NCBI GenBank assembly: GCA_011372335.1
Contig: DRSY01000028.1
Span: 1 to 11,584, forward strand
Length of the DNA stretch: 11,584 nucleotides
Origin: Candidatus Woesearchaeota archaeon
GTDB taxonomy: Archaea > Nanobdellota > Nanobdellia > Woesearchaeales > SM23-78
Reading direction: 5' to 3'
Shown: positions 112 to 8,871 of the stretch, piece by piece
How positions within the stretch are numbered: position 1 is the stretch's first letter
How the letters are laid out: each line of letters opens with the position of its first letter
The notes under the pieces: model-generated
Seen by the model: the letters and a program-made list of their open reading frames with translations, nothing else
Databases searched by the model: none
Told to the model about the DNA's origin: nothing
Position numbers and translations under genes: made by a program

Positions 112-912
112 TCATTCATGAACCCCTTTAACCTTATCATACCTGAACACAGGGCCGTCCTTGCACACGTATAAGCCAGAGATCATGCAATGACCGCACA
201 TACCCACCCCGCACTTCATCCTCCTCTCAAAACTCACAAATATCTGGTCGTGGTTAAAGCCGAGCTTCTCAAGAGTCATGATTGTGAACTTAATCATTAT
301 CGGAGGCCCGCATATCATGACTGCTTTGTTCTTATTATTAAGCCCTGACTCCTCCACGATCTTTGTGACAAGACCAACCCTGCCCTTATAATCCTTGGGT
401 GCTTTGTCAACAGTAAGGTGCAAGTCAAAGATCCTATTCCACACCTCCATATCTTTCTTAAAAAGTATTTCCTCAGGTCGTTTAAAGCCGAAGAACACAT
501 GAACTTTTTCGTAATCAGCTCTGTGCTTCTCCACGTACTTAAGCACACCTCTTAGAGGAGCCACTCCTGTACCCCCGCCGATAATCACAAGATTGTTTCC
601 TATTAAATCCTTCATAGGATAACCATTACCATAAGGACCTCTGAGCCACATATAACTTCCTGGTTCTAGTTCTAATAACTTATTACTAACACTCCCTACT
701 CCGCGGATGTTAAACTCAATAAAGTCATGCGAGCAGGAGCACACAGAGAAAGGTGCTTCTCCAACACCCGGAACAGATACTTGGAAGAACTCTCCTGGGT
801 CATAGCAAAGCTTTTCTTTTTCTCCTCTGGGTCTCTCTAATTTAAACAAACAAATATCTGTGGTCTGTGCTTCTTTCTTCACAATCCTAAAAGGCTTTGG
901 GCTGAACAACAT
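112..912 (-). CDS. hydG: Group 3b [NiFe]-hydrogenase gamma subunit (FAD/NAD(P)-binding, 2Fe-2S)
   Basis: A 266-residue flavoprotein that moves electrons between NAD(P)H and the iron-sulfur chain of a cytoplasmic hydrogenase. It belongs to the ferredoxin-NADP reductase-like family that includes the sulfhydrogenase gamma subunit and the PyrK electron-transfer subunit of dihydroorotate dehydrogenase. Visible parts are an FAD-binding barrel with GEAPFSVCS (residues 51-59), a nucleotide-binding GGGTGVAPLR (112-121), CGPPIM (201-206) and a C-terminal 2Fe-2S site with Cys234, Cys239, Cys242 and Cys250 (C-x4-C-x2-C-x7-C). PyrK shares this architecture, but the beta subunit upstream and small subunit downstream decide for hydrogenase. 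The ATG lies three bases after the beta stop and the stop abuts the delta ATG, so it is an internal operon gene. Length is close to the usual one and all key residues are present. Confidence 0.93.
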   Translation of the reverse strand: MLFSPKPFRIVKKEAQTTDICLFKLERPRGEKEKLCYDPGEFFQVSVPGVGEAPFSVCSCSHDFIEFNIRGVGSVSNKLLELEPGSYMWLRGPYGNGYPMKDLIGNNLVIIGGGTGVAPLRGVLKYVEKHRADYEKVHVFFGFKRPEEILFKKDMEVWNRIFDLHLTVDKAPKDYKGRVGLVTKIVEESGLNNKNKAVMICGPPIMIKFTIMTLEKLGFNHDQIFVSFERRMKCGVGMCGHCMISGLYVCKDGPVFRYDKVKGVHE

Positions 913-915
913 TTT

Positions 916-1878
916 TCATACTCTGGACTGGTCAAACTTGTTAATCACCTCTGTAAAGTCAATAAGCCTAGGACATGCTTCTATGCACCGACCACAACCA
1001 GTGCACATATCCACGCCGAAGTTCTCCCTGAAGTATTGTAGCTTATGATAAATCCTGTGCTTGAAACGAGTAAGCCTGTCCTTTCTAAAAACAAAGCCTC
1101 CTGCTACGAGTGTGAAGTTAAGGAACTGGCATGAATCCCATTCCTTATAACGTTTACCGCGCTTCATATCAGGTTCTAACTCATCAATCATATCAAAGCA
1201 CAAGCAAGTAGTGCAATGAGCAGTGCACTTACCACAACTCAGGCATTTCTCATTTTCTTTCTCCCAAGCAGGATCATCATAGTACTTAGCAAGGTCTTTT
1301 CTATCAAGCTTCTTCTCACACCTTATAGGGGGGATTAAGAAGTCATAATCCTCTAATTCCATTATTAAGGCTTCTCCCTTAGCACTTCCTGCTTCAACAT
1401 AATACTTATCCCCTAAGTCGTGGAAGAACAAGTCATAGTACCTCTCCAAGTCCATTGACTCGCAGAAACAGTACTCGCTAGGAGGAGGGTCACAGTTAAT
1501 GCCTAAGAGCAAAGTGTTCTCTCTTGCAAGTCTGTAATAGTCGTCCTGGTACTCGCCTGATAAGAAGAGCTTATCCAGTCTTAGGAGGCCGTTAAAATCA
1601 CAGAGCCTGCCTCCGAATATTACTCTGGGTTTAAGCTTAATCTCGTCCTCTTTGAACAGTTTTTTCTTAGTAAGGTTCAGCGTGAATAAGTCTTGCTTCG
1701 CAGGTGAGAAGAACTTCTTAATAGGGAATAAGGGTCTGCCTTCCAAGCAGATATCATCATAATCCCTTACTACTTCAAATCGGAGCGTGTCTCTCTTAAC
1801 AGGAGCTATGAGATCAGCACCCCTAGAAACCCTGCGTAAAAACGCGTCCAACCTCTTTTTCTCCAAAACCTTACCCAT
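916..1878 (-). CDS. hydB: Group 3b [NiFe]-hydrogenase beta subunit (4Fe-4S ferredoxin-type)
   Basis: A 320-residue iron-sulfur subunit linking the hydrogenase small subunit to the flavin subunit in the cytoplasm. It resembles Pyrococcus HydB and the AsrA sulfite reductase subunit. The N-terminus (DLIAPVKR) and FGGRLCDFNGL match the family. Cys129, Cys137 and Cys139 lie in NCDPPPSEYCFC. Two C-terminal cluster motifs follow: CLSCGKCTAHC (Cys212, 215, 218, 222) with further cysteines in CLCFD, and CTGCGRCIEACP (Cys292, 295, 298, 302). WDSCQF between them is also typical. I chose the ATG at 1876-1878: a TATA box sits 28 bases upstream, as at other leaderless genes here, and the protein then begins like its relatives. 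The frame stays open to a TTG at 1926, which would overlap the protease gene, but its only SD-like sequence is almost adjacent to the codon. AsrA is the alternative; the neighbours argue against it. Confidence 0.92.
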   Translation of the reverse strand: MGKVLEKKRLDAFLRRVSRGADLIAPVKRDTLRFEVVRDYDDICLEGRPLFPIKKFFSPAKQDLFTLNLTKKKLFKEDEIKLKPRVIFGGRLCDFNGLLRLDKLFLSGEYQDDYYRLARENTLLLGINCDPPPSEYCFCESMDLERYYDLFFHDLGDKYYVEAGSAKGEALIMELEDYDFLIPPIRCEKKLDRKDLAKYYDDPAWEKENEKCLSCGKCTAHCTTCLCFDMIDELEPDMKRGKRYKEWDSCQFLNFTLVAGGFVFRKDRLTRFKHRIYHKLQYFRENFGVDMCTGCGRCIEACPRLIDFTEVINKFDQSRV

Positions 1879-1902
1879 ACTTCCTAAGAAAGAAAAAGCA
1901 GG

Positions 1903-1910
1903 TATATAAA
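1903..1910 (-). promoter_or_regulatory. TATA box for a leaderless hydB transcript
   Basis: On the minus strand this reads TTTATATA. Its centre is about 28 bases before the ATG at 1878, so transcription would begin at or next to the start codon. It lies in the 40-base gap between the protease and hydB, suggesting that the structural genes can be transcribed separately from the protease. The same ten-base block (GGTATATAAA on the plus strand) recurs at 8804-8813 before the ABC ATPase gene. Confidence 0.6.
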
Positions 1911-1918
1911 AGTTATTG

Positions 1919-2296
1919 TTAAACAAGCCCCTTAATCAACTCCTGGATCTCTTTTACTGCTTTCTCCTCGTCATACCCTTGGGGGATGCCAATAATATTA
2001 ACCTTTTCCACTTTCCCTGTCTCTTTCAGCAGTTTCAAGAAATAGCTCAAATCAAAGTCGTGCAAAGAAAAGATTACGCTAAACTCCAGACTGTCAATAT
2101 CATCAAATACTTCAACCTTATCAATACCCTTCGCAACATCAAGTATTAATACATCTTTAAGCTCATAGTTAAGTAAGTCATCTGGCTTAGTGCAGTGCTC
2201 AACTCTAAAACCCTTCTTACCCAGCTTCTCACCAAGCCTAAACGCAAGATTATCTTCTTCTAAGTAGGGGTTGCCAAAAACAAGTATTTTTCTCAT
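1919..2296 (-). CDS. [NiFe]-hydrogenase maturation protease (HyaD/HybD/HycI-like)
   Basis: A 125-residue protein of the hydrogenase maturation endopeptidase family, which clips the C-terminal tail of the large subunit once nickel is inserted. The N-terminus MRKILVFGNP matches the family's first strand and GN turn. Candidate nickel-sensing ligands are all present: an acidic pair at Glu14/Asp15, Asp53 in ILDVAKG and His79 in SLHDFD. The E. coli HybD ligands are Glu16, Asp62 and His93. The family's usual Asp-Glu order near the first ligand appears as Glu-Asp here. IIGIPQGYD near the C-terminus fits the family's closing strand. It is shorter than the usual 150-160 residues. The ATG at 2296 was chosen because a TATA box lies 28 bases upstream; the frame is open eight codons further. 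It is first in the operon, with hydB next, and its likely substrate is the alpha subunit outside the window. Confidence 0.85.
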   Translation of the reverse strand: MRKILVFGNPYLEEDNLAFRLGEKLGKKGFRVEHCTKPDDLLNYELKDVLILDVAKGIDKVEVFDDIDSLEFSVIFSLHDFDLSYFLKLLKETGKVEKVNIIGIPQGYDEEKAVKEIQELIKGLV

Positions 2297-2320
2297 ACCA
2301 AAATATTTATAAGAAAACAC

Positions 2321-2364: not shown

Positions 2365-3279
2365 GTGAATAACAAGAAGGGGTTGTTATTTATTCTTGGA
2401 ACAGCATTAATTTCAGGCATATCTATCTTTATTAATAAATTCGGAGTGAAAGGGATTGATGCTTACTTATTCACAGGAATAAAGAACTTAATTGTTGCCC
2501 TACTCTTATGCTCATTAATCCTCTTAGTAAGAGATTACAGAAAATTAAGGGAGTTAACAAGAAAAGATCTTGTAAGATTATTCTTAATAGGCCTCACAGG
2601 AGGAAGCATTCCTTTCCTATTATTCTTCAAAGGTTTACAAATGACAAGCGCATCCCAAGGAGCCTTTATTCACAAAACAATGTTTGTATGGGTTAGTATA
2701 TTAGCACTAATATTTTTAAAAGAGAAACTGAACAAGGGCATAATCATAGGAGCTGTTCTTCTCTTAGCAGGTAATTTATTATTGTTAAAACTGAATAACT
2801 TTGTTTTCTCAACAGGCGACTTATTAATCCTCGGAGCCACGCTGCTCTGGAGTACAGAAACAATTATCTCAAAACACACACTAAAAACATTAGACAGCAG
2901 GATCGTTGCGTTTGGCAGGATGTTCTTTGGCTCATTACTAATCATAATCTTCCTAACAATAACTAATAGAATCTCATTAATCAAAGCTTTAACAACCACG
3001 CACATCGCATGGATTCTTATAACATCAGTCTTCCTCTTCGGATATGTCTTCACATGGTACTCTGGGTTGAAACAAATAAAAGCAAGTGTTGCAACAAGCA
3101 TCCTCCTCCTAGGCTCTGTAATAACCACTATGCTTAACTTATCCTTTGCTAATATAACAATAACACTTAGCCAGATAATCGGCGTAACCCTCTTAATCAT
3201 AGGAGTAGCATCTGTTGTTGGGTTCACAACGATTATAAAGAAAATTCAATCAAGTTTTTCTATTGCAAAAGCCAAGTGA
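2365..3279 (+). CDS. EamA/DMT-superfamily membrane transporter
   Basis: A 304-residue integral membrane protein with about ten hydrophobic helices, roughly at residues 6-24, 35-55, 69-88, 98-118, 125-142, 152-168, 180-200, 213-232, 240-262 and 268-289. It shows the two-fold repeat of EamA proteins: each half opens with a helix ending in a small-residue and Lys stretch (SGISIFINKFG near 17-27; WSTETIISKH near 162-171). FLKEKLN after helix 4 and the short C-terminal basic tail are also typical of drug/metabolite transporters. The substrate cannot be told from sequence; amino acids, nucleotides or metabolites are all carried by relatives. It starts with GTG behind a good ribosome site. It diverges from the hydrogenase operon, and its last 34 bases overlap the end of the convergent HypC-fusion gene. 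Confidence 0.9.
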   Translation: MNNKKGLLFILGTALISGISIFINKFGVKGIDAYLFTGIKNLIVALLLCSLILLVRDYRKLRELTRKDLVRLFLIGLTGGSIPFLLFFKGLQMTSASQGAFIHKTMFVWVSILALIFLKEKLNKGIIIGAVLLLAGNLLLLKLNNFVFSTGDLLILGATLLWSTETIISKHTLKTLDSRIVAFGRMFFGSLLIIIFLTITNRISLIKALTTTHIAWILITSVFLFGYVFTWYSGLKQIKASVATSILLLGSVITTMLNLSFANITITLSQIIGVTLLIIGVASVVGFTTIIKKIQSSFSIAKAK

Positions 3280-3752
3280 ACACTTACTTTATCTCCTTTC
3301 TTCACATCAGGAACCAGGGTGGCAAAAACCTTTCTAATAATCCCATCATACTTCACGCTTAGAATATTGTCCTTCTTACCAATAACTTCTGCCTTATGAA
3401 CCTTGCATAGTTCTTTAAAAGAAGGCGTGGCTGTTGCGTAATCACCGTCGCCTGCTTCAATAAACTTGTTATGCTCTTCTAACCAGTACTTCCGAAGCAC
3501 TTCTATATCCCAGTAGTCCTTGTTCATCTGCGCAGCCACGATTCTTATCCTCTTAAAAGCGTTTGGAAAACAAGATTCGAGGTAATCCCGCTTAAGAGTC
3601 TTCTTCCCAAAAAGAAGCTTTTCAAGGATCTCAGCATCCTCTTCACTCAGCTTGTGCTGATGCTGCAAGTTACGAATACAAGGATAAGCATACATTAAGA
3701 AATATCTTTCAGGGCTTATCCCCGCGCTTATTTGTTCTCGCTCTTCTCCCAT
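3246..3752 (-). CDS. HypC-domain fusion protein, probable hydrogenase maturation factor
   Basis: A 168-residue protein whose last 54 residues align without gaps to HypC, the chaperone that carries the Fe(CN)2CO group with HypD. Cys116 falls on HypC Cys2, and LVPDVKKGDKVSVHLAFAIEKLD ends as HypC does, including the conserved His (His159). The usual C-x-x-x-P-G start is replaced by CKVHKA, so the Pro-Gly is missing and the Cys is internal. Residues 1-114 form a mostly helical domain I cannot firmly name; YFLMYAYPC near 17-25 recalls the YAFPPN-like motif of an uncharacterised family I remember beside hydrogenase genes, unverified. The ATG lies inside the end of hypC (25-base overlap), implying coupled translation. 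An ATG at 3695 is an alternative start. Context and domain both point to hydrogenase maturation; the exact step is unknown. Confidence 0.75.
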   Translation of the reverse strand: MGEEREQISAGISPERYFLMYAYPCIRNLQHQHKLSEEDAEILEKLLFGKKTLKRDYLESCFPNAFKRIRIVAAQMNKDYWDIEVLRKYWLEEHNKFIEAGDGDYATATPSFKELCKVHKAEVIGKKDNILSVKYDGIIRKVFATLVPDVKKGDKVSVHLAFAIEKLD

Positions 3753-3946
3753 ACCCTAATCGCCTCTAAGGCTTCTTTCCTAGGGATTTTCTGGATAACA
3801 AACCTGGCTTGTACAAGAACATAATCCCCTGGTTTTACACTTACTAGTTCTGTGCTTACCTCTCTTCTCTCACCAGAGTAATCAATTAGTGCTAACCTTT
3901 TCTCCTTATCAACTCGGACTACTCTGCCAGGGATTCCTAAGCACAA
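3728..3946 (-). CDS. hypC: HypC-family hydrogenase maturation chaperone, TTG start
   Basis: A 72-residue small beta-barrel chaperone that binds HypD and delivers the Fe(CN)2CO unit to the hydrogenase large subunit. I chose the TTG at 3944-3946. It gives the family's N-terminus MCLGIPGRVV, with the essential Cys at position 2, and lies five bases after AGGTGG. The GTG at 3953-3955 would place three residues before Cys2 and sits inside that ribosome site. The rest fits: IDYSGERREVSTELVSVKPGDYVLV, then a helix with a basic and acidic tail. One oddity is VQARFVI at residues 45-51, where nearly all HypC proteins have V-H-x-G-F-A; the conserved His is Gln46. It overlaps and precedes the fused HypC gene. 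HypD, HypE, HypF, HypA and HypB are not in the window. Confidence 0.9.
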   Translation of the reverse strand: MCLGIPGRVVRVDKEKRLALIDYSGERREVSTELVSVKPGDYVLVQARFVIQKIPRKEALEAIRVWEKSENK

Positions 3947-3951
3947 AAAAA

Positions 3952-3957
3952 CCACCT
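3952..3957 (-). promoter_or_regulatory. Ribosome binding site fixing the TTG start of hypC
   Basis: The minus strand reads AGGTGG, then TTTTT, then TTG TGC. The five-base spacing picks out the TTG at 3946 and hence a Met-Cys N-terminus. Confidence 0.75.
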
Positions 3958-4034: not shown

Positions 4035-5855
4035 TCAGCAGTTACCTTGTGGCTGCGCCTCTGTGCTTCCTTCAAGCGTAGTGTTACACTCCTCTGGTGG
4101 CTCATCAAAAGCCTTGCATAACGCTTGTTTATAAGCTTCAGGAGTCCTCGGACCACTATACAACTCTCCGTCAATGAACACCGTAGGGCTTCCTCTGACT
4201 TTAAGCTTATCCCCTAACTGCTTATCAGCAGTCATAAGCTCAACTGCTTCTTCTTCTTCACACTGCTTTATTCTATCCGTGTCAAGCCCAAGACTCTCTG
4301 CTACAGGCTCCCAGCAACTATCAGCATTACCTGAATTACACTCCGTGTTCATTGCAAGAGCGAACTTGAACCAGTTAGCAATACCATCATACTTAAGCAC
4401 ACAAGCCTCTCTTATGTCTTGGTGCAGCTCCTGAATACCATGCATTGAGCAGAGCTTGTCATCATTAATACAATAATTAGGACCGCCCCCTCTATAATTA
4501 CTATAAATAACGTAGTGAGGCTTAAACTCAGCTTTGTCCTTTAATAACTGGTAAACAGGTTCTATGGCTTGCTCTGCCTGGTTACCGAACGGGCAGTAGC
4601 TCATCACAAAGAAGTCAATCTGGGGCTTGTTATCACCAAGCGTAACACCGATAGCGTCGTAATAAGCAATTCTTGCTTCTTCATTAACAAAATAAGTGGC
4701 TCCAGTCACCGCGTCTCTTAACTTGTACTTATCACCTGTTTTCTCAAAAGCGGTTCTTAAATCAGGGTTCTCCTTCCACGACTTGGTCTCCTCAAGACTC
4801 TTGTCAAAGATATAAGCAGGCACCACTTGTATGTTATACTCCTCTATAAGTTGTTTTCCTTCTTCACTACTAGCATCAACAGGTCTTGGTTTTGCTCCTA
4901 GGAATAATTGCTGGGTTACCTCCACAATCCTAGTTGTATCACAAGCAGCACCCTTACAATCCGCAGAAGTAAGAATAATGTACTCCACGCTCACAGGCTC
5001 CTTGTACGTACAATAAGCATCTGGCTGCCCAGCATTATTACAAACACCTATCATGCCTTTCTCTGCAGTGCAATCAGCGTCTGTGACGCATTCAGGGATT
5101 TCCTTGCATGCTTCGTGCTCAACGTGCTGGCACACAGCTCTTTGAAAGGATAATGAATCCCGCCTCCCTTTATAAAGAGCATCATTAAAATACATGGTGG
5201 GGCTTGCTGTTGCTCCCATAGCCTGTGTTCTTTGCATGGATTCCCTTAGTAACATCTTACCCTCGTCTCCTTCTAAGCAACTTCTTAGTTTCTCAACATC
5301 CATGTTATTCTCCTTAGCACAACCCACCCAGTTAGTATCAACATTAGCCCGGTCCTTGTTCTGGCAAACAATGAATTTCATGTACACGTAGTTCTCAGGG
5401 TAATACTTCTTTGCGCACAGCTGTACGATATCCCCTTTAACCTCTTTTTCGCCATGCAAACTCTGGAACTGCCCTGGGCTTGGCTCAGTCACAATATAAT
5501 CCAGGTTAAAATCTATGACATCACCCATTTGTTCAAGCACAGGGTAAAAAGCATCCTCCACCTGGGTTCCGTACGGGCATTGACTCATAACATAGAACTC
5601 TACTTTTACCTTATTATCACTAACAACCTGATTAGTAGCAAGAGATGTGTTTCTTAATAAGAGAATAATCACAAGAGTGATGATTATGACAAGAAAAACA
5701 GCAGAAAGCACTGGATAAAAAGTCCCTGGAAGTTTTTTTTCCTTTTCCTTAATCTTTTTTTCAATGCTCGGCTTGGAGCTTTTTGTTTTTTCTCTTGTTC
5801 TATGCTCATCAAACCCAGCTTCTCTTTTATACCTTGATTTCTTTGAAGTTTTCAA
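4035..5855 (-). CDS. Membrane-anchored protein with three thioredoxin-like modules
   Basis: A 606-residue protein: basic cytoplasmic head, one membrane helix (about 48-68), then a large outer part expected to act in disulfide chemistry. Module 1 (about 80-240) has SQCPYG (Cys93) and a cis-Pro loop ASPT (Pro219). A cysteine-knot-like linker has Cys256, 262, 272 and 282. Module 2 (about 288-352) has CKGAAC (Cys300, Cys305) and VVPAY (Pro346). Module 3 (about 411-585) has SYCPFG (Cys421) and GSPT (Pro557). Modules 1 and 3 also carry HG-x2-E followed by a Cys, recalling DsbA/GILT-type proteins. Both their active sites are C-P-x-G, lacking the second Cys of CxxC. I chose the TTG at 5855 because GGAGGTG lies six bases upstream; the frame opens at a GTG at 5876 that overlaps this site. 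Substrate and redox partner are not visible. Confidence 0.85.
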   Translation of the reverse strand: MKTSKKSRYKREAGFDEHRTREKTKSSKPSIEKKIKEKEKKLPGTFYPVLSAVFLVIIITLVIILLLRNTSLATNQVVSDNKVKVEFYVMSQCPYGTQVEDAFYPVLEQMGDVIDFNLDYIVTEPSPGQFQSLHGEKEVKGDIVQLCAKKYYPENYVYMKFIVCQNKDRANVDTNWVGCAKENNMDVEKLRSCLEGDEGKMLLRESMQRTQAMGATASPTMYFNDALYKGRRDSLSFQRAVCQHVEHEACKEIPECVTDADCTAEKGMIGVCNNAGQPDAYCTYKEPVSVEYIILTSADCKGAACDTTRIVEVTQQLFLGAKPRPVDASSEEGKQLIEEYNIQVVPAYIFDKSLEETKSWKENPDLRTAFEKTGDKYKLRDAVTGATYFVNEEARIAYYDAIGVTLGDNKPQIDFFVMSYCPFGNQAEQAIEPVYQLLKDKAEFKPHYVIYSNYRGGGPNYCINDDKLCSMHGIQELHQDIREACVLKYDGIANWFKFALAMNTECNSGNADSCWEPVAESLGLDTDRIKQCEEEEAVELMTADKQLGDKLKVRGSPTVFIDGELYSGPRTPEAYKQALCKAFDEPPEECNTTLEGSTEAQPQGNC

Positions 5856-5861
5856 GAATAA

Positions 5862-5868
5862 CACCTCC
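5862..5868 (-). promoter_or_regulatory. Ribosome binding site for the thioredoxin-like gene
   Basis: GGAGGTG on the minus strand, six bases before the TTG at 5853-5855. It is the best Shine-Dalgarno match in the window and argues against the upstream GTG codons, which would contain it within the coding region. Confidence 0.75.
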
Positions 5869-5901
5869 ACCAGCACTAGTTTAAAAGAAGTTAAAAGCTT
5901 G

Positions 5902-5909
5902 TATTTAAA
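5902..5909 (-). promoter_or_regulatory. TATA box for the thioredoxin-like gene
   Basis: TTTAAATA on the minus strand. A start about 25 bases downstream, near 5880, would give a leader of about 25 bases containing GGAGGTG. The gap from here to the permease stop at 6004 shows nothing else I can name. Confidence 0.5.
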
Positions 5910-6003
5910 AAGTTTATCTAATATTCCCTTTATTCCTTTTGTTCTTTCTCATTTATTCCTTAAAGTCCTAGAATGGTTTCTTAGCCGCACCCCTTAGCTG
6001 CTT

Positions 6004-7728
6004 CTAAGAGAGGCATTCTCCTTTTTTTATTCTCTTCCGGGATAGCAAGGCATGAAGAAGTATCATAACAAGGAATATTATTAGAGCCGCTCCGAACAAG
6101 ATTAGGATGGGTGTTAATACTTCTTGGAAGGATATCCTGAATAACAAGGACTTCCTTAAAAGCTCTGATGCAAGCACATAAGGATTATACTTTACTATGC
6201 CTGACAAACCCGGCGCAAGGGTTTCTAAAGGGATAACAAGGTTAGATAAGAACATGAGCACTGCTCCGATGACTATCGAAGCCATGATTGCTCCTTCCTG
6301 GGTTGAGAACAAGTAGCCAATAATCATGCCTAGGATAATGAAAAAAGTGGTTGTAACAAGGATTATTAACAGAGTAGACAAGACGTTTTTAAACAAAGGT
6401 ATGTGCAGGAAATAATTAGCTAGCCAGAGGATAATAAAGGTTTGTAGAATAATCACTGTGAAGCTGGTTATGAATGTTGTGATTATAAAGAGGGAATGTG
6501 TTGTAGGCGTGATAGAATTTCTGAAAAAAGCTTTTGAGTTCTTTTCAAAGAGGATAAGAGTGCTTGACAAGAGCAAAGCAACAAACATTATTACAAGAAC
6601 CAGGATGAAAGGAAACATAAATACTTGTTTTGATGTTTCTGATACTACCGGCTCAATTCTTGTGTTCACAGGGCTTACAATAGTCTCTGCGCTCGTTACG
6701 CTTATCCCAGCAAGGTTGTGTTTGCTCCTCTCAAGAGCTATTCTTAACTCGGATACGCTGCTCTGTATATCCGCGAGGTTATTCTTAGCTGATTCTATTC
6801 TTTCTTGCGTCTTCTTATTCAGCTGCTTACTCATATTCAGGTCTGATTCGAGCTGTGAAATAGAAGAAGAGGTTTTTTCAATAGCATCAAGGGTCTCTTG
6901 AATCCTCAGGCGGGTCTCGTTATACAGGGTTATGGTCTTATTCTTTAATTTTTCAAAATCCTGGATTTTTTCTTCAGACCTGTTTTCGCCCCAGTGCTCA
7001 TAATCCTCAACCAGGATTTCAAGGTATTCCTGCGTCTTATTTATTAATTCAAAGCCTTGTTCCTCTAGCGAAAGGATGGTCTTATTAAGCAAGATTACAC
7101 TCTTATTAGTACCTGAAAGACGAACATCCCTTGTCTCAAGCTTCATCGCCTCTGTATTACTCTTAGCTTTTTGTAAGTCAAGCATCAAAAGATTTATCTT
7201 GGGATTCAGCTCGCTTAATAATATTAAATCAGCATTTATATCATCAATCGTATTATTTATTTTAGAGAGAAGAAGTTGTGTTAAGGAGTAACTCAACTCT
7301 TTTGATTCAATTTCAAGGGTTTCTGATACCGAATTAATAATTTTATAGACAAGATTCATCCTAGAGTAATCCACCAAGAACCTGAGCTCATTAGTTTTCT
7401 CGTTGCTTATCTGAAAATTTTTTGGAAAGATTATGCATGTATGAATTATTCCTTGTTCTATCTTATGAACACAGGTCTGTTCATCCTTAAACTCTTGAAC
7501 ATAATACTTGCTCTGCTTAAGCCCGTCTATAAAGGCGTTTGTAAGATTATTGTAGTCAGGAGCGTAATAACCCACACTTAACTCATAAGATGTTTTACCG
7601 CTAAAAGCCAATCCAACCAGTAAGATGATTAGAAGAGGCCCTATTAGTACTATAAAAGCAGAGGCTTTGGATCTGATTAAAAGCTTAAAATTCTTCTTTA
7701 TAATACTTACACTGCGTCCTACTCTCAT
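6004..7728 (-). CDS. ABC-2 type exporter permease with large coiled-coil ectodomain
   Basis: A 574-residue permease with six membrane helices: one at about 24-43 and five at about 369-393, 411-437, 449-475, 479-502 and 537-562. This is the ABC-2 layout with a very large loop (about 44-368) after helix 1, as in exporters of the YhgE/Pip and DrrB-like groups. The first loop part has SYELSVGYYAPDYNN and FPKNF, typical of the family's globular ectodomain; residues about 130-340 look like coiled coil with many heptad Leu/Ile. Nine N-x-S/T sequons lie in the loop (Asn61, 158, 208, 215, 230, 249, 263, 270, 298), which fits surface N-glycosylation. SGIVKYNPYVLASELLR near 509-525 is a usual ABC-2 motif. 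It lies 73 bases downstream of the ATPase gene with GAGGG before its ATG. The substrate is unknown. Confidence 0.87.
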   Translation of the reverse strand: MRVGRSVSIIKKNFKLLIRSKASAFIVLIGPLLIILLVGLAFSGKTSYELSVGYYAPDYNNLTNAFIDGLKQSKYYVQEFKDEQTCVHKIEQGIIHTCIIFPKNFQISNEKTNELRFLVDYSRMNLVYKIINSVSETLEIESKELSYSLTQLLLSKINNTIDDINADLILLSELNPKINLLMLDLQKAKSNTEAMKLETRDVRLSGTNKSVILLNKTILSLEEQGFELINKTQEYLEILVEDYEHWGENRSEEKIQDFEKLKNKTITLYNETRLRIQETLDAIEKTSSSISQLESDLNMSKQLNKKTQERIESAKNNLADIQSSVSELRIALERSKHNLAGISVTSAETIVSPVNTRIEPVVSETSKQVFMFPFILVLVIMFVALLLSSTLILFEKNSKAFFRNSITPTTHSLFIITTFITSFTVIILQTFIILWLANYFLHIPLFKNVLSTLLIILVTTTFFIILGMIIGYLFSTQEGAIMASIVIGAVLMFLSNLVIPLETLAPGLSGIVKYNPYVLASELLRKSLLFRISFQEVLTPILILFGAALIIFLVMILLHALLSRKRIKKGECLS

Positions 7729-7801
7729 CTTCCCTCTTTGCTTCTTAACTCATAATACTTACATACTCGTTACGACGTACGCACATATTTTTTTTGTTCT
7801 T

Positions 7802-8782
7802 CTAACGTGTTATTCTGAGGAATAACTCATCCAAGCCAGGTCTTGAAACCCGGATATCAATGAGTTCTTCTTTCAAAGTTTCAAGGGTGTGAATTAATTT
7901 ATGCAGAACCATGTGTGGCTGATCAGAATAAATGATAAGTTCAGAACCTTTTATCTTAATATCAAAAACTCGGCTTCCTGGTTGTTTTAAGGCATTCGCA
8001 ATATTAGCGTACGCGCCAGGGTAAGTCTGGATTCTTATTTCCTGGGAATCCGCGTACTTTGTCTTTAGTCGTGCAGGGGTGGCAACATCAATAATCTTGC
8101 CATCCTTAATAATAGCTATTCTAGAGCAAAAAGCTTCAACCTCAGACAGATGGTGGCTTGCAAGGATAATTGTTGTTCCCTTCTTATTAATCTTCTGAAC
8201 AAGGCTCCAGATGTGGGCTCTTAGTAAAGGATCAAGGTCTGATGTGGGCTCATCAAGAACGAGTATTTCTGGATCATGAATTAACGCACAAGCAATATCA
8301 AGCCGTCTCCCCATTCCTCCGGATAAGTCTCCGGCAAGGACATCCTCTGCTTTTTTTAAATCCATTAAGGTAAGCAAGATGTCTGTGTTTGACTCAAGGG
8401 CTTTTCTTGGAAGATCATATAAAGAGCCGAAATACATAAGGTTCTCTTTCACGGTTAGCTTCTTGTAAAAAGAAGGGTCCTGACTTCCAAAACCGAACAG
8501 AGTCCGAGCAAGTCGGGGTTGCTTATAAACAGAAGCGTATAAAGGCTTGTTTTTTCCTTGTTTCCGCTTGACAAAATAATCATACCTGAACTTAACATCT
8601 CCTTCCTCGGGAGCAAGATAACCAATCAGCGTTCTTAACAGAGTCGTCTTACCACTTCCACTAGCACCAACCAAACCAAAGATTTCTCCTTCATAAATAT
8701 CAAGAGAGACTCTCTTAAGCACAGTAAGGTTACCAAACCGTTTAGTAAGGTGCTGAACCCGTAGAATGGGTGGTCGTTGCAT
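7802..8782 (-). CDS. ABC transporter ATP-binding protein
   Basis: A 326-residue ATPase powering the ABC-2 permease encoded next. Motifs in order: Walker A GASGSGKTT (39-47), Q-loop Gln101 in GFGSQDPSFY, signature LSGGM (153-157), Walker B ILVLDEP (173-179) with catalytic Glu178, D-loop SDLDP, and switch His210 in ASHH. Between Walker A and the Q-loop there is an unusually long basic stretch (about 65-95, YDYFVKRKQGKNK) where drug-exporter ATPases are normally shorter. A C-terminal extension of about 80 residues ends in SRPGLDELFL, common in this class. The ATG at 8780-8782 was chosen because a TATA box lies 28 bases upstream; the open frame extends 24 further codons that read as non-homologous and contain that box. 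The gene is divergent from yjbQ. Confidence 0.92.
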   Translation of the reverse strand: MQRPPILRVQHLTKRFGNLTVLKRVSLDIYEGEIFGLVGASGSGKTTLLRTLIGYLAPEEGDVKFRYDYFVKRKQGKNKPLYASVYKQPRLARTLFGFGSQDPSFYKKLTVKENLMYFGSLYDLPRKALESNTDILLTLMDLKKAEDVLAGDLSGGMGRRLDIACALIHDPEILVLDEPTSDLDPLLRAHIWSLVQKINKKGTTIILASHHLSEVEAFCSRIAIIKDGKIIDVATPARLKTKYADSQEIRIQTYPGAYANIANALKQPGSRVFDIKIKGSELIIYSDQPHMVLHKLIHTLETLKEELIDIRVSRPGLDELFLRITR

Positions 8783-8805
8783 AATAAAAAAAGAACCTTT
8801 TGAGG

Positions 8806-8813
8806 TATATAAA
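8806..8813 (-). promoter_or_regulatory. TATA box for the ABC exporter operon
   Basis: TTTATATA on the minus strand, centred about 28 bases before the ATG at 8782, giving a leaderless transcript. The extended block GGTATATAAA (plus strand, 8804-8813) is identical to the one upstream of hydB. Confidence 0.65.
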
Positions 8814-8871
8814 CTTTGCCATAAAAACAGGGAATAAGAAATAATGAAAAACATAACACGAGGAGAAAATA

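Follow-up and report, generated by a model that had tools for sequence, protein, structure and literature searches.

The window, by which we mean the whole 11,584-nucleotide stretch of Candidatus Woesearchaeota DNA analysed here, encodes a small HypC protein on the reverse strand (3728..3946), whose gene is overlapped over 25 bases (3728..3752, reverse strand) by that of a 168-residue protein, the companion (3246..3752, reverse strand), a distant relative of DUF6390. Convergent with the companion gene, and overlapping it by 34 bases, is the gene for an EamA/DMT-family permease on the forward strand (2365..3279). Further along, all on the reverse strand, are genes for a HycI-like hydrogenase maturation protease (1919..2320) and for the beta (4Fe-4S; 916..1926) and gamma (FAD/NAD(P); 112..912) subunits of a group 3b-type hydrogenase. 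The protease scores 25.7 bits against PF01750 (cut-off 23) and stays below the TIGR00072 cut-off; its orthologues are present at syntenic loci. The small and large hydrogenase subunits of this genome, which is 74% complete, are on another contig (L243). Next to hypC, a 613-residue protein with two DsbA/GILT-like thioredoxin-fold regions is encoded at 4035-5876 and adjoins the cassette in three related genomes as well (G001, G002 and G006). An ABC-2 membrane protein and an ABC ATPase follow at 6004-8854, with look-alike frames near the locus in G002 and G006.

The window's HypC exceeds the cut-offs of both family models, with 72.3 bits against PF01455 (cut-off 28.5) and 54.3 bits against TIGR00074 (cut-off 48). 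Its translation could start at the TTG at 3946, which together with the following TGC yields an N-terminal Met-Cys, or alternatively at a GTG at 3955. What it lacks is the conserved HypC histidine (H51 in E. coli, H45 in Thermococcus); the aligned column holds Gln46. The first-pass annotation had described a HypC with Cys2 but Gln46, and a 25-base overlap with its neighbour, and both are borne out by sequence and alignment. It had also placed a HypC-like domain at the end of the companion (residues 115-168; 3249..3410, reverse strand), and a structural match of this segment to HypC was indeed found: residues 116-168 are HypC-like in sequence and predicted fold, PF01455 matches above its cut-off, and His159 falls on His45. 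The companion's C-terminal domain thereby shares the predicted fold and the family histidine of the HypC/HybG/HupF chaperones (PF01455, TIGR00074), of which the small HypC, with Cys2 and without the histidine, is a member. It departs from them in that an extra N-terminal domain precedes it, the Pro-Gly after the cysteine is lost, and the cysteine itself (Cys116) is internal instead of a free N-terminal Cys2 and is not conserved (Cys in 32 and Ser in 7 of 39 companions); its TIGR00074 score is 25.2, against a cut-off of 48. The N-terminal domain is mostly helical and carries Cys25 and His94, which like His159 are invariant in all 39 short companions aligned (of 41; L099 was excluded, as was L075 with its HypC and companion in a single frame). 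Solved-structure matches spanned only the HypC part of the companion, its N-terminal parts being barely covered by the comparison, and no cofactor motif was recognised. A separate canonical HypC was looked for elsewhere in the genome and none was present in the 74% that is assembled. Passages of the literature describe the HypC histidine as a possible iron ligand (PMC12134894) and place it in a cavity at HypD, with the proposal that HypC alone, via Cys2, hands Fe(CN)2CO to the large subunit (PMC11565642).

A draw of 287 genomes from the archaeal order gave 99 with a HypC match, and the 101 HypC loci of these genomes were classified. HypD occurs in 23 of the 287, and 22 of these also have HypC. 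Of the 77 genomes that have HypC and no HypD, 75 have HypC paired with the short companion (41 genomes), with DUF6390 (29) or with a fused HydE-like domain (5). The short companion overlaps HypC or lies within about 350 bases of it; nearly full-length homologues of the window's companion were found in 19 of the 98 genomes searched, its own included. A longer relative, assigned to Pfam DUF6390 from three tested copies, stands at 27 further loci (26 in HypD-less genomes and one, a truncated copy, in a HypD genome) and on another contig in three more HypD-less genomes (G036, G243 and G270). HHalign links the two families across 113 columns (97.8%, E 1e-12). This relation is seen by profile-profile comparison only, as PF19927 (cut-off 25 bits) gave no match for the window's companion at E up to 1; judged by its sequence, the companion is a relative of DUF6390 and not a member. 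DUF6390 proteins have about 240 residues, against 168 in the window's companion; their N-terminal domain is longer and they have a helix at the C-terminus. Eight of 80 DUF6390 rows were set aside, some because of truncation and others by choice; among the 72 aligned, every row has His123 and His207, and 71 have Cys20 and Cys149. PF19927 matched in 35 of the 287 genomes: the 29 HypD-less genomes with HypC, G022 (which also has the short companion), G184 and G121 (a partial match), the two of the 35 with HypD, and G032, G096 and G253, in which no HypC was matched.

Loss of the HypC histidine follows the distribution of HypD closely. In all 77 HypD-less genomes HypC is His-less, with Gln, Ser, Asn or rarer residues in its place, while the 22 HypD genomes hold 24 HypC loci, of which 23 keep the histidine and the 24th is a truncated remnant. 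The Cys2 column holds a cysteine in 100 of the 101 loci. Chance loss was rejected on these counts (0/77 against 23/24), and mis-assembly because the arrangement of the window recurs in 41 genomes. The first-pass annotation had asked whether loss of the histidine and presence of the companion go together. They do in all 41 short-companion genomes, but five HypD-less genomes carry fusions of a Gln-bearing HypC with a HydE-like radical SAM domain and no companion, so that His loss in this order tracks the absence of HypD rather than fusion alone. His-less HypCs with no companion found also occur in G119 and in G172, the latter a doubtful 46-bit match without Cys2. The gene after HypC in G119 is not a companion by profile; it encodes a 264-residue orphan (L122:7786-8577) that overlaps the end of hypC, matches no family over cut-off and could be a further companion type. 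Outside the draw, 45 DUF6390-linked HypCs from genomes unmatched to it have His in 12 cases, Gln in 31, Ser in one and Tyr in one; all 12 His-keeping cases are titled Thermoplasmata, and HypD was absent from the 11 of these 12 genomes that were searched for it. In the HypC tree, which is poorly resolved, the histidine changes state 11 times in all, three times inside the order, with no fewer than four changes forced. With three steps in the order, and with cassettes moved as units, the link between His and HypD does not amount to 77 independent events. A HypC that keeps Cys2 and loses the histidine may be what is to be expected of a carrier working without HypD.

HypD, HypE and HypF are the standard proteins thought essential for the iron-carbonyl-cyanide site of [NiFe] enzymes. 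Genome-wide profile searches covered 80 of the 99 HypC genomes (41 with the short companion, 20 with DUF6390, 15 canonical and 4 with the fusion). HypD was found in all 15 canonical genomes and in none of the other 65. HypE over cut-off gave the same split, with weaker matches below cut-off in some of the others, and HypF over cut-off was found in 10 of the 15 and none of the 65; among the matches listed, those to HypF in companion genomes cover only regions characteristic of acylphosphatase, YrdC and Kae1 proteins. At profile cut-off, all three are missing from the 61 genomes of the order that have the short companion or DUF6390, and HypD had no match in the 74% of the window's own genome that is available. 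Fifty genomes reached through DUF6390 loci gave no HypD either; one of them is G048 again, leaving 49 further genomes, and completeness and kinship are not given for this set. The [NiFe] large subunit, on the other hand, was found in 77 of the 80 genomes and in 62 of the 65 without HypD, the exceptions being G003, G118 and G254. An [FeFe]-hydrogenase was rejected as the client of the cassette, PF02906 being matched in five of the 80 genomes (three canonical ones, G002 and G073).

Within the window's genus, gene sets are swapped at one locus, flanked in each case by the Dsb-like gene on one side and by the protease, beta and gamma genes on the other. The slot holds HypC, companion and EamA in the window and in G001, and HydG with a HypC-HydE-like fusion in G002. 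In G006 it holds an EamA remnant abutting a HypC remnant (L140:7269-7475) with no companion match, and HypC, HypD, HypE and HypF are encoded on another contig. Another HypD genome, G059, has a truncated DUF6390 without the Cys20 region. The broken remnants of the companion cassette bear on the order of gain in G006 and G059 only. A third HypD genome, G184 (L180), has a full-length DUF6390, the sole one of the 72 aligned rows without both Cys20 and Cys149, and no EamA or HypC match beside it. Apart from G006, G059, G184 and G121, no trace of a companion cassette was found in HypD genomes. Mapped onto a large-subunit tree of 69 sequences, the cassette label has 26 changes (mean of shuffled labels 33). 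The canonical label has 16, a total no lower than with shuffled labels, and starred branches force at least 11 of them. An independent-pairs test was concordant in 11 of 11 pairs (16 on all branches); as the His state entered in it was taken from the HypD label, it speaks for repeated cassette exchange and not for separate losses of the histidine. These trees are of the quick kind, with labels given per genome, and some HypD genomes carry more than one hydrogenase.

The two replacements can each be compared with the window's cassette. A HypCD scaffold with HypE and HypF, found in relatives that share the hydrogenase but not the companion cassette, has the same presumed product and client, the iron fragment of the [NiFe] large subunit, whereas the companion cassette has no HypD, HypE or HypF and has the companion and a permease instead. 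The other resembles [FeFe]-hydrogenase maturation by HydG and HydE. A fusion of HypC with a HydE-like radical SAM domain adjoins HydG at L118:5391-8167, L124:2579-5387, L128:4372-7420 and L133:245-2951, and a fifth fusion (L127:6321-7655) lies next to a HydG-like frame at 4936-6330. HydG, a radical SAM enzyme like HydE, is present in all four fusion genomes tested, which have no HypDEF (in G254, L124, the match contains one in-frame TGA), and no [FeFe]-hydrogenase was found by PF02906 in three of these four (G241, G155 and G254), G241 and G155 having a [NiFe] large subunit. In the slot of G002, beside the same hydrogenase as in the window, HydG scores 518 bits and HydE 253.7 bits, against a cut-off of 254.6. 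HydG together with the fusion is a possible radical-SAM route to the [NiFe] site, and it suggests that one hydrogenase may receive its diatomic ligands by quite different means. The window's genome differs in that HydG had no match there.

Most companions have the permease next to them. Among the loci scanned in the order, EamA lies near HypC at 36 of 41 short-companion and 21 of 23 DUF6390 loci, and at none of the 23 canonical or five fusion loci. HypA and the protease are linked at 34 and 37 of the 41 short-companion loci, respectively, and at 18 and 20 of the 23 DUF6390 loci. In a wider collection, the best 80 of 450 confirmed DUF6390 stretches (about 20 of them from genomes of the draw) have EamA nearby in 74 cases, the large subunit in 66, HypC in 65, the protease in 32 and HypA in 20, and HypD, HypE or HypF in none. 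The window's permease matches, below their cut-offs, TIGR00950 and YddG, models of carboxylate/amino-acid/amine transporters and of an aromatic amino-acid exporter. In the HypD-bearing cases examined (G184, G059 and two plasmids discussed below), the permease is not beside DUF6390, and in G006 it is a remnant.

In our view, a cassette consisting of His-less HypC, companion and EamA permease probably takes the place of HypD, HypE and HypF in maturing the group 3b-type [NiFe]-hydrogenase encoded beside it. Support comes from the gene set, its linkage to the hydrogenase, the absence of HypD, HypE and HypF in profile searches, intact large-subunit motifs, and replacement by two other cassettes beside the same hydrogenase. 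That the three proteins are present yet missed, being divergent, unassembled or supplied by a host, is conceivable for a set made mostly of metagenome bins, with the window's own genome incomplete and 50 others of ungiven completeness. It is nonetheless very unlikely, given that the same HypD and HypE profiles separate canonical from other genomes without exception, that 42 of the 52 genomes with completeness of 90% or more and contamination of 5% or less have the large subunit without HypD (all 52 have the former, 10 the latter), and that HypD is missing from the one-contig genome G016 and from archaeon AR10 (L236), titled a complete genome. These hydrogenases might instead do without a normal Ni-Fe(CN)2CO site, having other ligands or being inactive, in keeping with which no genes for ligand synthesis were seen; we know of no biochemistry for them. 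We find this quite unlikely: in 48 large subunits taken from companion genomes, RxCGxC is present in all, PRG in 47 and DPCxxC in 46 (both with misses are cut by the stretch end), their active-site cysteines and the PRG arginine being as in HypD-bearing relatives. Moreover, HypA and the protease stay linked in the order, though near only 20 and 32 of the 80 DUF6390 loci, and members of this hydrogenase lineage rely on HypCDEF in G006 and on HydG in G002. The first-pass annotation had proposed two complementary HypCs acting as a heteromeric carrier with HypD. The complementary pair has stood, as linked genes with complementary residues at the histidine, conserved in 41 of 41 short-companion genomes; its partnership with HypD is scarcely credible, with HypD absent from 61 of 61 companion genomes of the order and from the 49 further ones. 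A heteromer of HypC and companion without HypD is likely.

Under our preferred reading of a HypD-free maturation cassette, HypC would still carry the iron fragment on Cys2 to the apo-large subunit, and the companion would stand in for HypD as its partner, supplying the histidine from its own HypC-like domain, with Cys25 and His94 (Cys20 and His123 in DUF6390) as further iron-binding or catalytic residues. The balance for and against these residue roles seems to us even. More tentatively, the permease might import a substrate or precursor of the iron ligands. Equally tentative is a broader picture in which the route without HypD, HypE and HypF is fed by the permease: HypC and companion would provide a Cys/His/His scaffold on which an iron-ligand synthon is either received from outside or assembled by novel chemistry. 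A single hydrogenase lineage would then have three unrelated systems of ligand supply to switch between: HypDEF, HydG plus HypC-HydE, and companion plus permease. For the EamA type, import of a precursor seems to us somewhat more likely than synthesis by the companion. A special case of the cassette reading, about which we are rather doubtful, is salvage: a ready-made Fe-CN/CO complex, or else a donor of the ligands, would come in through the permease from the surroundings or from partner cells, leaving HypC and companion only the task of loading it into the large subunit. To our knowledge no imported Fe-CN-CO compound has been described, and the permease's matches, an aromatic amino-acid exporter among them, lie below cut-off and do not give the direction of transport. 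In its favour, transporter and carrier genes make up the conserved neighbourhood and no CO- or CN-forming enzyme is seen in the cassette, the permease is missing beside DUF6390 or broken in the HypD-bearing cases examined, the record titles include DPANN archaea and Patescibacteria, and external CO can enter the cofactor, according to a passage of PMC12134894. In another special case the companion would itself be an enzyme making CO and/or CN from a metabolite through its invariant cysteine and two histidines. Their conservation in both families fits this, as does the loss of both DUF6390 cysteines in the one row known from a HypD genome, but with no cofactor motif recognised and solved-structure matches confined to the HypC part, in a comparison that barely covered the rest, we regard it as unlikely. 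Whatever the chemistry, many genomes with apparently intact [NiFe]-hydrogenases are without HypD, HypE and HypF, and nearly all carry one of a few small replacement cassettes. These consist of two or three genes and are directly testable, and the HydG type offers an enzyme that makes CO and CN. If the cassette reading is correct, DUF6390 and a group of EamA permeases would gain a function.

A literature search turned up nothing on DUF6390 or HypD-less [NiFe] maturation, including in the sections covered of PMC12134894, PMC11565642, PMC7304191, PMC8421398, PMC12727194 and PMC9431212, preprints being outside its scope. A family partly like HypC also adjoins the group 3b hydrogenase gene clusters of CPR bacteria; in the sections covered of that paper, neither maturation nor a lack of HypD nor a companion comes up (PMC7304191). 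In the wider collection, the best 80 of the 450 DUF6390 stretches are titled Woesearchaeota and other DPANN archaea, Thermoplasmata, Patescibacteria and a few other bacteria. One record titled Aminicenantes bacterium (L179) is in fact G048 of the archaeal order, and the bacterial titles of L167 and L231 may reflect mis-binning too. Among viral contigs, no relatives of the companion were found. DUF6390 also occurs inside complete hypFCDE operons on plasmids of Sulfobacillus acidophilus and Mycobacterium intracellulare, with its cysteines and histidines kept and a His-bearing HypC. Together with the HypD of G184 and G121, these operons indicate that DUF6390 is not only a substitute for HypD and can also work alongside HypDEF. 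The Mycobacterium plasmid encodes a second HypC-like protein as well (L263:10070-10780), whose N-terminal part differs and whose HypC domain, at the C-terminus (44.9 bits), keeps the histidine but has no Met-Cys, a design resembling that of the companion.
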